Part shown: positions 21,587-42,448 of the stretch, in pieces | How positions within the stretch are numbered: position 1 is the stretch's first letter | How the letters are laid out: every line of letters begins with the position of its first letter | Assembly: GCF_947501405.1 (NCBI RefSeq) | Contig: NZ_CANMVK010000001.1 | Coordinates: forward strand, 186,001-250,000 | Source: an uncultured Hoeflea sp. | GTDB taxonomy: Bacteria > Pseudomonadota > Alphaproteobacteria > Rhizobiales > Rhizobiaceae | Length of the DNA: 64,000 nucleotides | Direction: 5' to 3' | Position numbers and translations under genes: made by a program | Notes under the pieces: generated by a model | Told to the model about the DNA's origin: nothing | The model's input: the letters and a program-made list of their open reading frames with translations, nothing else | Databases searched by the model: none

Positions 21587-21949
21587 TCAGCCCCTGGTGT
21601 GGGCGATCATCAGTTCGACGCGCTTGAGTTCACGCAGGATGCGGTCGGCCTGCATTTGCGGCATCAGGCTGGTCTTGATGATGGTGGCCAGGATCAGCAG
21701 CGTGGCGGCCGGCAGGCCCCATTTGAGCGCGGTCAGCGCGTCGCCGGCTGCAAAGAACTTGAGGCCCATCCAGACCGAGATAACAAACAGGGTGATCTGC
21801 ACCGCCATGATCACCCAGGTGACCCAGCCGAGCTTGCCGCGAAACTGGCTGGCGCCGAGCGCGAACCAGCCCAGTTCGCGGGTTTCCCTCAAGATGTCCT
21901 TGTCCTGATCGGACAGGGCCTGTTCGATCAAATCGTCGAGCTTAGTCAT
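21587..21949 (-). CDS. Small two-helix membrane protein (DUF6768-like) paired with an ECF sigma factor
   Basis: A 120-residue protein with a charged N-terminal region (LDDLIEQALSDQDKDILRETREL), two membrane helices (about 43-63 and 73-92) and a C-terminal amphipathic segment (MQADRILRELKRVELMIAH). It overlaps the 3' end of the sigma-factor gene by eight bases, so they are translationally coupled. Such proteins are recorded as DUF6768, as I recall. By position it may control the sigma factor, but no anti-sigma (ASD or zinc) motif is visible. Confidence 0.75.
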   Translation of the reverse strand: MTKLDDLIEQALSDQDKDILRETRELGWFALGASQFRGKLGWVTWVIMAVQITLFVISVWMGLKFFAAGDALTALKWGLPAATLLILATIIKTSLMPQMQADRILRELKRVELMIAHTRG

Positions 21950-22493
21950 CCAAGTCTCCTTTCAAGGCGTTGGTGAGTTTGGTTCTGGCATGCATCAGCC
22001 GGGTCTTGATGGTGCCGGGGGCCACGTCCAGCGCCACGGCGATTTCGGCGATGCTCATCTCATCGAAGTAAAACAGCGAGATCGCTGCGGCGTGATTGGG
22101 TGGTAGTGTCTCGATCGCCCGGTGGATCGCTCTTGCGTCGGCGGCCATGGGGCCCTGACCATCGGTCACGGTGTCATTTTCGATCGCGGCTTCGGCCTCG
22201 CGAGTGCGGCGGGATTTGCCCGCTGAAATCAGCCTGACCGCGCGGCGGGTCACGATCCTGTAGGCCCAGGCCCTGAAGGCGCGAACGTCGCGCAGGCCGG
22301 GAAGCCCGTGCATGATTTCGATCCAGGCGTCCTGAGCCGCGTCATGGGCGTCTTCGCGGTTGCCGAGCAGCCGGTAGGCATGACGTACAAGGCCCGGTCC
22401 ACGCAAGGCCGCCAGCCGGGCAATGGCATCGCGGTCGCCCAACCTGGCGCTGGTCACCAGATAGTCTTCGAGGATTTCTCTTTTGCCGCGCAT
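21942..22493 (-). CDS. ECF-type RNA polymerase sigma factor
   Basis: A 183-residue sigma-70-family factor. Region 2 is visible as RHAYRLLGNREDAHDAAQDAWIEIMHGLPGL with RAFRAWAYRIVTRRA. Region 4 reads LPPNHAAAISLFYFDEMSIAEIAVALDVAPGTIKTRLMHARTKL. A linker of about 45 residues separates them. The overlapping downstream membrane protein is the candidate regulator. Target promoters are unknown. The start codon ATG is preceded by a weak AAGGAAGA site. Confidence 0.9.
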   Translation of the reverse strand: MRGKREILEDYLVTSARLGDRDAIARLAALRGPGLVRHAYRLLGNREDAHDAAQDAWIEIMHGLPGLRDVRAFRAWAYRIVTRRAVRLISAGKSRRTREAEAAIENDTVTDGQGPMAADARAIHRAIETLPPNHAAAISLFYFDEMSIAEIAVALDVAPGTIKTRLMHARTKLTNALKGDLDD

Positions 22494-22581: not shown

Positions 22582-22701
22582 AAAAAAATGGGCCGCGAGA
22601 TTGCTCTCGGGCCCAATAGGTATGAAGGTCAAAAACCTCCAGAGGGGAACAGCTCATGCGGCGGCACTGGGAGGAGTAGGCCGCCAAAGGTGCATCAGCT
22701 G
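22582..22701 (-). ncRNA. abcR: AbcR-type (alpha-r15 family) small regulatory RNA
   Basis: Predicted transcript of about 120 nt. It contains the single-stranded anti-Shine-Dalgarno motif CUCCCAG (complement of 22667-22673), known from AbcR RNAs of rhizobia and Brucella, a second loop segment CCCCUCUGGAGG, and ends in a strong terminator hairpin (22589-22615, one bulge) followed by seven U. It sits downstream of an LsrB/VtlR homologue, the classical AbcR position. AbcR RNAs, with Hfq, repress ABC-transporter mRNAs. The 5' end is inferred from the promoter spacing. Many rhizobia carry two tandem copies; I see only one. Confidence 0.8.
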
Positions 22702-22707
22702 TAGTCG

Positions 22708-22736
22708 ATATGGTGCTTTCTTAAGCAATGAGCAAG
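22708..22736 (-). promoter_or_regulatory. Sigma-70 promoter of the AbcR-like RNA
   Basis: On the minus strand, CTTGCT (complement of 22731-22736) is separated by exactly 17 bases from CCATAT (complement of 22708-22713). This is close to the alphaproteobacterial housekeeping pattern CTTGAC-N17-CTATAT and predicts transcription starting near 22701. Confidence 0.65.
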
Positions 22737-22746
22737 GGGAGGCGGT

Positions 22747-22772
22747 GCATGTCAGCCATGCAAATTGCGCAT
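22747..22772. promoter_or_regulatory. Candidate LysR-type (LsrB/VtlR) binding site upstream of abcR
   Basis: Two overlapping symmetries, GCATG-TCAGC-CATGC (22747-22761) and GCAA-A-TTGC (22760-22768), lie at about -46 to -71 relative to the predicted abcR start, the usual place for a LysR-type recognition site. The neighbouring lsrB-type gene encodes the likely binder, as VtlR is known to activate AbcR RNAs in Brucella and Agrobacterium. Binding here is inferred. Confidence 0.45.
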
Positions 22773-22849
22773 GACTGCCGGTTTTTTGGGCTTCTGGCGT
22801 CCGGTGAGCTGCGAGCGTGCGCTCCCGACGGCCTGCGCGCCCTTCGGCC

Positions 22850-23746
22850 TCAATAGTTCCAGGTCCGCGCCTTGGAAATCAGAAAATCGCGGAAGGCCTT
22901 GAGTTTGGCTGCATTTCTCATCTCCTCGGCATAGCAGAAATAGGTGTCGAAGCTCGGAATGTCGGCAGACACATTGAGCTGGACCAGTCCTGCCTCCCGA
23001 TTGATCATGTAGTCGGGCAGCATCGATATGCCCGCGCCATTGATGGTGGCGCGGCGGATTGCCGGAAGATTGTTGATCTGCAATTGCGCCTCGCGGCGAT
23101 TGTCCGGGTTGCGGCCGGCATATTCGAGCCAGTTGACATCCTTCAGATAGGCCGGTGAGGGCTCGCCGAAGGTGATGATCCGGTGGTTGTCGAAATCGGC
23201 CACCGATGTCGGTTCGCCGTAACGCGCCAGATAGGCGGCGGACGCATAGACGTGGAAATGCACGGTGAACAGTCGGCGCTGGATCAGGTCTGGCTGTTGC
23301 GGCTGGCGCAGCCTGATGGCGCAATCGGCCTGGCGCATGCTCACATCCAGCTCCTCGTTGTCGAGGATCAGCTGCACCTGTACATCGGGATAGAGGGATT
23401 GAAACTCCTGCACCTTCTCGGTCAGCCAGCCCTGTCCCAGCCCGACCGTGGTGTTGACCCGCAACTTTCCGGTGGGGCGTTCGCGGGTCTCGACAAGGCG
23501 GTTCTTGACCGATTCCAGTTTCATCAGCACTTCATGGGCGGTCTGATAGAGAATCTCGCCCTGTTCGGACAGGATCAGGCCGCGGGCATGGCGATGGAAC
23601 AGCTTGGCGCCGATGTCCATCTCCAGCGCCGAGACCTGGCGGCTGATGGCCGATTGCGACAAATGCAGCTTCTCCGCCGCATGAGTAAAAGAGCCGGCCT
23701 CCGCGGCGGCGTGAAATATGCGCAACTTGTCCCAGTCGAGCGGCAT
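22850..23746 (-). CDS. lsrB: LysR-family regulator, LsrB/VtlR type
   Basis: A 298-residue LysR-type regulator whose N-terminus (PLDWDKLRIFHAAAEAGSF) and helix-turn-helix (LHLSQSAISRQVSALE) match what I remember of rhizobial LsrB. The effector domain includes VGLGQGWLTEKVQEF, DNEELDVSMRQADCAIRLR and FDTYFCYAEEMRNAAKLKAF. LsrB/VtlR controls redox and LPS functions, symbiosis and virulence, and activates AbcR RNAs. I prefer the ATG at 23744-23746, after AGGGTGAG, over a GTG nine bases earlier. Neighbours trxB, lrp and the AbcR-like RNA fit the conserved rhizobial locus. Confidence 0.9.
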   Translation of the reverse strand: MPLDWDKLRIFHAAAEAGSFTHAAEKLHLSQSAISRQVSALEMDIGAKLFHRHARGLILSEQGEILYQTAHEVLMKLESVKNRLVETRERPTGKLRVNTTVGLGQGWLTEKVQEFQSLYPDVQVQLILDNEELDVSMRQADCAIRLRQPQQPDLIQRRLFTVHFHVYASAAYLARYGEPTSVADFDNHRIITFGEPSPAYLKDVNWLEYAGRNPDNRREAQLQINNLPAIRRATINGAGISMLPDYMINREAGLVQLNVSADIPSFDTYFCYAEEMRNAAKLKAFRDFLISKARTWNY

Positions 23747-23887
23747 CGTGCTCACCCTGTTCCCTCTGGCTGTTTGTCAGCCTTTGATCGAACCGGTTGA
23801 CCCGGCCTTGATGTGGTCGCCGGTTTGTCCGGCTTGGAAATCGTCGCCCGCAGGCCCGGTTCGAAGGCCCGGTTCGGGCCCGATCAA

Positions 23888-24014: not shown

Positions 24015-24989
24015 TTATTCCGCGGCTTCGGCGTGGCGTTCCACACCGGCAAGGTAGCGTTCGGCTTCGAGCGCTGCCATGCAGCCCAGTCCGGCTGCCG
24101 TCACCGCCTGGCGGTAGATGTCGTCGGTCACGTCGCCGGCGGCGAACACGCCCGGCACATCGGTGGCAGTGGAATCGGGTGCGGTCCACAAATAGCCGTT
24201 GGGTTTGTAACGGAGCTTGTCCTTGAACAGGCTGACGGCCGGCGCATGGCCGATGGCCACGAACACGCCGTCAATCGGCATGTCGGTGATTTCGCCGGTG
24301 TTGCGGTTTTTCAGTTTCACGCCGTTGACCGAGGCCGGCATCGGCGGCTCAGCCGGCGCGCCGAGATACTCGATCACTTCCGAATCCCAGATGACATTGA
24401 TGTTGGGCTTGTCGAACAGCCGCTGCTGCAGGATCTTTTCAGCCCGGAATTCGTCGCGACGATGCACCACGGTAACCTGGGCGGCGAGATTGGAAAGATA
24501 AAGCGCTTCCTCAACGGCGGAGTTGCCGCCGCCGACCACGACGACGTTCTTGCCGCGATAGAAGAAGCCGTCGCAGGTGGCGCAAGCCGAGACGCCGAAG
24601 CCCATGAATTCCTTCTCGGTGGGGATGCCCAACCATTTGGCCTGGGCGCCGGTGGCGATGATCAGCGCGTCGCAGGTCCAGACCGCGCCGGAATCGGTCC
24701 TGACCGTGAAGGGGCGCTGGCTGATCTCGACCTCGGTGACCAGATCGTTGACGATCTCGGCGCCCACATGTTCGGCCTGTTTGAGCATCTGCTCCATCAT
24801 CCACGGACCCTGCACCGGGTCGGCGTAACCGGGATAGTTTTCCACCTCGGTGGTGATCATCAACTGGCCGCCCTGCTCCATGCCGGCGATCAACACCGGC
24901 TCAAGCAGCGCCCGGGCTGCATAGATCGCCGCGGTGTAGCCGGCCGGACCGGAACCGATGATGAGGACGGGAACGTGACGGGTGGTCAT
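24015..24989 (-). CDS. trxB: Thioredoxin reductase
   Basis: A 324-residue NADPH- and FAD-dependent reductase of thioredoxin. It has the FAD motif IIGSGPAGYTAAIYAAR near residue 8, the redox-active SACATCDGFFYRG near 140, the NADPH motif VVVGGGNSAVEEAL near 157 and the C-terminal FAD motif GVFAAGDVTDDIYRQAV near 283. The start follows AGGATACC. Lrp-type lrp is divergent and lsrB lies downstream, as in other rhizobia. Confidence 0.96.
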   Translation of the reverse strand: MTTRHVPVLIIGSGPAGYTAAIYAARALLEPVLIAGMEQGGQLMITTEVENYPGYADPVQGPWMMEQMLKQAEHVGAEIVNDLVTEVEISQRPFTVRTDSGAVWTCDALIIATGAQAKWLGIPTEKEFMGFGVSACATCDGFFYRGKNVVVVGGGNSAVEEALYLSNLAAQVTVVHRRDEFRAEKILQQRLFDKPNINVIWDSEVIEYLGAPAEPPMPASVNGVKLKNRNTGEITDMPIDGVFVAIGHAPAVSLFKDKLRYKPNGYLWTAPDSTATDVPGVFAAGDVTDDIYRQAVTAAGLGCMAALEAERYLAGVERHAEAAE

Positions 24990-25298
24990 CTTGGTATCCT
25001 GAAATAGCTGTTGCGAGCGGCCAGTGTGGGCCAACCCTTGTAACGCATCAATGACGATCGCCGGCCTCATGCCAGCCCGATGTGTCGTGTTGATGGTTCT
25101 TGACCCCCATTTATGTATGGGGGGCGGGGGGATTCAAGCTCCGCACGGCGGTTACGCACAGAACTTCGCGATTGCGTGATGTGTTGAGGCTTTACAGCCG
25201 TCGCCGGGTAACGCAATAAAGTTGCGTCCAAACAGCGACAAAGCCGGATTGATGTCCGCACCAAGGCCAGCAACCGGGGCCGAGACAGGAACCGAAAC
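24990..25298. promoter_or_regulatory. Divergent trxB/lrp promoter region with hairpin
   Basis: This 309-base spacer holds the outward promoters of trxB and lrp and no gene. A 7-base-pair hairpin, CCCCCAT at 25104-25110 with ATGGGGG at 25117-25123, lies in the trxB leader or promoter region. Autoregulation by Lrp is plausible from family knowledge. Confidence 0.5.
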
Positions 25299-41530: not shown

Positions 41531-42448
41531 ATGGACTGGAAGGGCCGCCGCCAAAGCCGCAACATCGAGGACCGGCGCGGACGCGCGCCACGGGCGCGCA
41601 ATCCGTTCGGGCGCGGCGGTGTGCGGCTGCCCACTGGCGGCTTGCGGCGCGCCTCCGGTGGGGGCATCTCCACCATCGTGGTGCTGGTGGTGCTGTTTGT
41701 GGTGCTCAAATCCTGCGGCATCGATCCGCTGCAGATTCTGGCTGGCGGCGGCTCCGGCCTGCCCGGTGGCGACCCGGCGGTCACCGAGCGCCAGGTGACG
41801 CCCGCGCGTCAGGACGAGATGAGCCAGTTCATGGCCACTGTGCTGGCCGAGACCGAGGATGTCTGGAACGGGGTGATGCAGGCCCAGGGCGTCAATTATC
41901 CCGAACCGACGCTGGTGCTGTTTACCGATGCGGTGCGGTCAGCCTGCGGCAACGCCAGTGCCGCGTCCGGGCCGTTTTATTGTCCGGGCGACAGCAAGAT
42001 CTACATCGATCTGCGGTTCTTCGACGAGCTGGCGCGGCGGTTTCAGGCCTCGGGTGATTTCGCCCAGGCCTATGTGCTCGCCCATGAGGTCGGCCATCAC
42101 GTTCAAAACGTGATCGGCGTGCTGCCGAAATTCAACCAGATGCGCCGTTCGATGAGCCAGACCGAGCAGAACCGGATGTCGATCCGGGTGGAGCTGCAGG
42201 CCGATTGCTTCGCCGGCATCTGGGGGCATTACACCGCCCAGAAGGGTTTGCTGGAACGCGGCGACCTGGAAGAGGCGCTCAATGCCGCGCAGCAGATCGG
42301 CGACGACACCATCCAGCGCCGCACCCAGGGTTTCATCGTTCCCGAGAGCTTCAATCACGGCACCGCGGCGCAGCGCAAGGAGTGGTTCGCCCGCGGCTTT
42401 GAAAGCGGCCGGCTGGAATCCTGCGACACGTTCAACAACCCGGTGTGA
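41531..42448 (+). CDS. Neutral zinc metallopeptidase (YpfJ family)
   Basis: A 305-residue membrane-anchored protein. A basic N-terminus (KGRRQSRNIEDRRGR) is followed by a membrane helix (ISTIVVLVVLFVVLKS, about 46-61), then the peptidase domain with zinc site VLAHEVGHHVQNVIG near 182, the downstream Glu in RVELQADCFAGIWGH near 217 and paired cysteines (SACGNA, FYCPGD). YpfJ-type proteins are widespread but their substrates are unknown. The signal anchor suggests a periplasmic active site. Confidence 0.9.
   Translation: MDWKGRRQSRNIEDRRGRAPRARNPFGRGGVRLPTGGLRRASGGGISTIVVLVVLFVVLKSCGIDPLQILAGGGSGLPGGDPAVTERQVTPARQDEMSQFMATVLAETEDVWNGVMQAQGVNYPEPTLVLFTDAVRSACGNASAASGPFYCPGDSKIYIDLRFFDELARRFQASGDFAQAYVLAHEVGHHVQNVIGVLPKFNQMRRSMSQTEQNRMSIRVELQADCFAGIWGHYTAQKGLLERGDLEEALNAAQQIGDDTIQRRTQGFIVPESFNHGTAAQRKEWFARGFESGRLESCDTFNNPV

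Follow-up and report, generated by a model that had tools for sequence, protein, structure and literature searches.

The minus strand downstream of an lsrB gene in this Hoeflea genome raises the question of whether it encodes a small RNA and, if so, which one, under whose control and against which targets. A sequence-only reading had placed an AbcR-type RNA at 22582 to 22701 and had named a covariance-model search as the check. We searched the window (the whole 64,000-nt stretch of DNA analysed) against Rfam release 15 at gathering thresholds. The sole match was to ar15 (RF02345), the AbcR family, at 22700 to 22584 on the minus strand, with a cmscan score of 97.5 bits (E 3.7e-19) against a cut-off of 40 bits and with the model covered in full (1 to 112 of 112). 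The check was strongly positive, the family name was borne out, and the proposed span was right to one base at the 5′ end. On this sequence evidence, we consider the 119-nt RNA at 22582 to 22700, with its 5′ end inferred, to be an ordinary but well-supported member of the ar15 family. AbcR is an already known class of regulatory RNA, to which the Hoeflea locus adds no new class; AbcR RNAs in related bacteria reduce nutrient-transporter production. A literature search of limited coverage found no paper on AbcR in Hoeflea.

The predicted fold of the RNA, with an energy of −50.5 kcal/mol (z −4.91), comprises three stem-loops, and none of 200 dinucleotide shuffles folded equally well. On the minus strand, stem-loop 1 spans 22651 to 22700 and holds the first anti-Shine-Dalgarno motif (aSD1) within its loop region, stem-loop 2 spans 22623 to 22641 with 99.4% of its alignment cells paired, and a Rho-independent terminator spans 22582 to 22615. 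The terminator consists of a hairpin (22615 to 22589) and the seven U residues (22588 to 22582) that had been noticed previously. Across an alignment of 26 copies (22 distinct), the window's fold pairs in 93.7% of cells, compared to at most 50.6% with partners slid by 1 to 3 columns; these counts take that fold as the reference and lean towards it. Cells changed on both sides of a pair numbered 18, whereas shuffles averaged 5.4 and none of 500 reached 18, and seven pairs had such a change against 4.1 in shuffles (9 of 500 shuffles). Further pair types among the 22 distinct homologues were not above shuffles (14 versus 13.2). RNAalifold returned a different, long-range structure with a small covariation term from the same alignment of 26 copies, a probable result of misalignment of the 3′ hairpin between genera. 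The family is marked by three stem-loops and a pair of unpaired anti-Shine-Dalgarno motifs, an arrangement seen in the fold, the pair counts and the motifs, while the RNAalifold structure differs; the first two bases of aSD1 sit in a weak 3-bp helix of the predicted fold.

The aSD1 motif (CUCCUCCC) occupies nt 25 to 32 of the RNA (22669 to 22676, minus strand) and overlaps the CUCCCAG on which the sequence-only reading had relied. The second motif, aSD2 (UUCCCCUC), lies single-stranded between stem-loops 1 and 2 at nt 52 to 59 (22642 to 22649, minus strand) and is unchanged in all 26 aligned copies. Both are letter-identical to the corresponding S. meliloti motifs, which were tested there (PMC8844928). 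We also considered that the RNA might have a dual function, with translation from its first AUG yielding a 13-aa peptide (MHLWRPTPPSAAA). This frame is open in the Hoeflea RNA and gives 13 residues in 6 of the 11 relatives' copies checked, but the AUG begins at nt 6, which leaves the transcript without room for a ribosome-binding site, and in the other five copies (L040, L041, L042, L043, and L045) the frame extends to 26 to 38 residues of different sequence. We set this small ORF aside due to its lack of conservation in those five copies and regard a peptide-coding role as extremely unlikely.

We then turn to how the AbcR RNA may be expressed. On the minus strand, a −35 hexamer CTTGCT (22731 to 22736) and a −10 hexamer CCATAT (22708 to 22713) are separated by a 17-nt spacer, for a predicted transcript start at about 22700. 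A script check found the hexamers and spacing as the sequence-only reading had described them; the S. meliloti hexamers given for comparison are CTTGAC-N17-CTATAT (PMC8844928). A generic promoter and terminator scan of the window called neither element at AbcR, with 0 promoters in all and 4 terminator-like sites that were all away from AbcR (3.2 in shuffles), so these two elements alone would not have stood out.

The best regulatory evidence at the locus is a predicted LsrB/VtlR site on the minus strand (22747 to 22773), which had gone unmentioned in the sequence-only reading. It contains an exact GCAT-N3-TG-N3-T box (GCATGGCTGACAT) at 22761 to 22749, which is −61 to −49 counted from the predicted start at 22700. 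The box is inside a longer dyad, GCATG-N5-CATGC (22761 to 22747), and a further CATGC half-site lies upstream (22773 to 22769). The bare 13-bp box is common, with nine exact matches within the window. The 27-bp pattern of the site had one exact match in the genome, at the AbcR locus, and nine more with three mismatches, two of which stand upstream of small-protein genes; the reversed control pattern had 0 matches. For B. abortus the VtlR box is described as confirmed, and for A. tumefaciens as a hypothesis (PMC7486931); a B. abortus motif is quoted as CAATGCAGCCATGCA (PMC12595884), the reverse complement of which fits the box. In S. meliloti, PabcR1 is reported to carry the box at −61 to −49, to show a >22-fold loss when trimmed past it, and to be bound by LsrB in a gel shift (PMC8844928).

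The box and its spacing are conserved in relatives. At the gathering threshold, where weaker copies are not counted, Rfam found 31 ar15 copies in 22 of 31 lsrB loci. A box with no more than one mismatch was present at −60 to −62 in 28 of these 31 copies, the three without it being second copies in Rhizobium-like loci (L045, L046, and L060). All 18 copies in Hoeflea-labelled loci, tandem ones included, keep the box with at most one mismatch. We also compared 39 distinct upstream sequences, taken only from copies with one exact 20-mer so that divergent copies were dropped: the box was exact in 23 and had one mismatch in 12, at 49 to 50 nt before the −10 CATAT. The remaining sequences were three with four or five box mismatches and one without CATAT there, CATAT being found in the expected stretch in 38 of the 39.

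The three second copies without a box bear on whether the Hoeflea RNA could instead be an AbcR2-like copy that depends on RpoH1 rather than on LsrB, as S. meliloti AbcR2 is reported to depend on RpoH1 (PMC8844928). The core hexamers do not decide between the two, since the RpoH1 consensus (CTTGAA-N16-CCTATAT; PMC8844928) is so similar to that of sigma-70. What argues against RpoH1 is that an exact LsrB box precedes the Hoeflea copy at −61 to −49, that this copy adjoins lsrB, and that the first copies in all 22 ar15 loci have a box with at most one mismatch at that position. We therefore find an RpoH1-dependent copy very unlikely and favor an AbcR1-type RNA with a predicted LsrB-activated promoter.

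The host genome, which comprises 4.45 Mb in 11 contigs and is 99.99% complete, contains a single ar15 match. Among 61 genomes searched, 37 had an ar15 match, which was above the cut-off in 29. Within the genus, 17 of 18 genomes had a match (own included), and the one without is 77% complete. Genus genomes with ar15 carry one to four copies, and 8 of the 18 have two to four; multiple copies are in tandem except in one genome with 9% contamination (G013), where the two are on different contigs. Scores across the family (genomes G018 to G036) ran from >100 down to approximately 30 bits, with three just under the cut-off of 40 (38.7 to 39.8), and divergent AbcR copies may thus be missed by the Rfam cut-off. 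One copy here, against at least two in 8 of 18 genus genomes, might be taken as the sign of a degenerate or silent pseudogene, but the full-length model match, both aSD motifs, the promoter box and the terminator are all intact. We give a pseudogene practically no credence, and we retain the reading of an intact, single-copy AbcR1-type gene.

The neighbors of the gene also agree with those in relatives. The lsrB/vtlR gene (22850 to 23746, minus strand) encodes a LysR regulator of 298 aa from the ATG at 23746 (a GTG at 23755 is also possible). Its Pfam HTH_1 and LysR_substrate domains and its identity to the Hoeflea-labelled loci, 85 to 88% for 11 of 12 and 80% for the twelfth (L040), uphold the earlier naming of an LsrB/VtlR neighbor; the identities also point to Hoeflea as the probable genus. 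The trxB gene for thioredoxin reductase (24015 to 25070, minus strand; 351-aa ORF as listed; NCBIfam TIGR01292 above cut-off) lies upstream as in relatives. Of 31 relative loci, 29 have trxB immediately upstream of lsrB, and the other two (L059 and L061) have it 1.8 kb away on that side. Along with the LsrB/VtlR box at its published position, this gene order agrees with the conserved AbcR setting that had been claimed. LsrB has two cysteines here, at 142 and 271 counted from the ATG. In A. tumefaciens, a conserved cysteine pair, C144/C273, and a nonconserved pair, C236/C244, are reported (PMC11975290); judged by the 129-residue spacing in both proteins, C142 and C271 probably match the conserved pair. 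On the other side, starting approximately 90 nt past the AbcR terminator, are an ECF sigma factor gene and then a DUF6768 gene (21587 to 22493, minus strand). A tblastn search for these genes found neither in any of the 31 relative loci, whose sequence extends at most 3 kb past lsrB (<1 kb in L037 and L061).

Taken together, we are highly confident that this is a single-copy AbcR1-type trans-acting small RNA that would be activated by LsrB, be assisted by Hfq, and block transporter and other mRNAs via aSD1 and aSD2. In our model, LsrB, the product of the gene just upstream, would activate the sigma-70-type promoter by binding the box at −61 to −49, giving a 119-nt RNA that would end at the intrinsic terminator. 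With Hfq, whose gene is encoded in the genome, the RNA would pair via aSD1 in stem-loop 1 and via aSD2 to transporter mRNAs, among others, at their ribosome-binding sites, thereby blocking translation. We infer transcription, LsrB activation, Hfq use and target repression in this strain from the tested relatives.

Pairing with candidate targets was examined in the leaders of substrate-binding-protein (SBP) genes from two SBP families, 19 in number after exclusion of 3 of 22 matches that were under the Pfam cut-off. The 19 SBP leaders paired with aSD1 better than 54 window leaders did (p 0.0016), the latter being taken from the longest nonoverlapping ORFs, whose starts were chosen by machine and in at least one case look wrong. 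With aSD2, the same comparison showed no enrichment (p 0.47). Taking the better of the two motifs gave a borderline p of 0.057, which became 0.097 when the controls were limited to the 31 window leaders that have a good Shine-Dalgarno sequence. A genome search for complements of aSD1 and aSD2 with at most one mismatch found, outside the RNA gene, a single site, which lies antisense to a 381-aa ORF. The modeled SBP-leader pairing fits AbcR repression of ABC-transporter mRNAs without proving it.

The lsrB leader itself is a candidate target. A stretch of it (CCAGAGGGAACAG; 23757 to 23769, minus strand; −23 to −11 from the ATG) is predicted to pair with aSD2 in a duplex with one bulged C at −23.0 kcal/mol. 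Among the 54 window leaders this one paired best with aSD2, and its duplex was also stronger than that of any of the 19 SBP leaders, with the caveats that it was picked out after examining 54 leaders and that the G-rich Shine-Dalgarno sequence of any gene pairs with aSD2. When both strands of the 64 kb were scanned in 65-nt tiles, three aSD2 sites reached −22 or lower: the RNA's own antisense, a site inside an ORF (41601 to 41715, plus strand), and the lsrB leader. Support from relatives was mixed: the lsrB leader ranked in the top 5% of its locus in 15 of the 22 loci that have an ar15 match and in 2 of the 9 that do not (Fisher p 0.026; relatives not independent). A full-length cofold of AbcR and the lsrB leader did not place aSD2 on CCAGAGGGAACAG. 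As LsrB would raise AbcR and aSD2 may pair with the lsrB leader, AbcR would lower LsrB. We offer this negative feedback loop, in which AbcR lowers its own activator, as a tentative and rather unlikely idea; if the pairing is true, the LsrB-AbcR circuit would be self-limiting. No paper on AbcR-VtlR feedback was found in a literature search of limited coverage.

Other genes in the genome may be linked to LsrB. A gene for a 54-aa protein (contig C1, 390630 to 390791, plus strand), with no Pfam family above cut-off, has an LsrB/VtlR box approximately 100 nt upstream. Of the 18 genus genomes, 16 contain the gene, and the box has at most one mismatch in all 16 and is exact in 10; in one locus (L130) the box was read by eye from the sequence. 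Among 28 loci from the family's other genera, 15 have an upstream box with at most one mismatch, against a background of 18.4% of 364 stretches (p 3e-5 if independent). We predict that this gene is likely a second LsrB target, and VtlR is described as activating small proteins in relatives (PMC7486931 and PMC12595884). The genome also has an ar14/NfeR1 match of 103.6 bits (contig C1, 1278309 to 1278435, minus strand), just downstream of a DUF1127 gene; a degenerate LsrB-like site (three mismatches) precedes the match. We take ar14 to share an Rfam clan with ar15. Loci of a DUF1127 gene plus a small RNA, as described for alphaproteobacteria (PMC10253847), resemble this one.

These results extend the LsrB-AbcR circuit, which has been studied in bacteria associated with plants and animals, to the Hoeflea genome. 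The Hoeflea RNA resembles S. meliloti AbcR1 in its size class, both 8-nt aSD motifs, the lsrB neighbor, the box at −61 to −49, the sigma-70-type hexamers, and the 17-nt spacer (PMC8844928). It differs in copy number, as S. meliloti also has a tandem, RpoH1-dependent AbcR2, whereas the Hoeflea genome has one ar15 match; where tandem copies do occur in Hoeflea-labelled loci, they keep the LsrB box, in contrast to the RpoH1 dependence of S. meliloti AbcR2 (PMC8844928). NfeR1 of S. meliloti (Rfam ar14) is described as a sibling of AbcR1/2 that has aSD motifs and is activated by LsrB (PMC10746234), but in the Hoeflea genome it is a separate gene, the 103.6-bit match at C1:1278309-1278435. A. tumefaciens AbcR1 and B. 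abortus AbcR2 are activated by LsrB/VtlR, with the same type of box confirmed in B. abortus and proposed in A. tumefaciens (PMC7486931). However, the A. tumefaciens abcR2 promoter reportedly did not compete for VtlR (PMC7486931), while 18 of 18 Hoeflea-labelled copies keep the box. With a single copy, AbcR could be deleted in this genome without a redundant sister.
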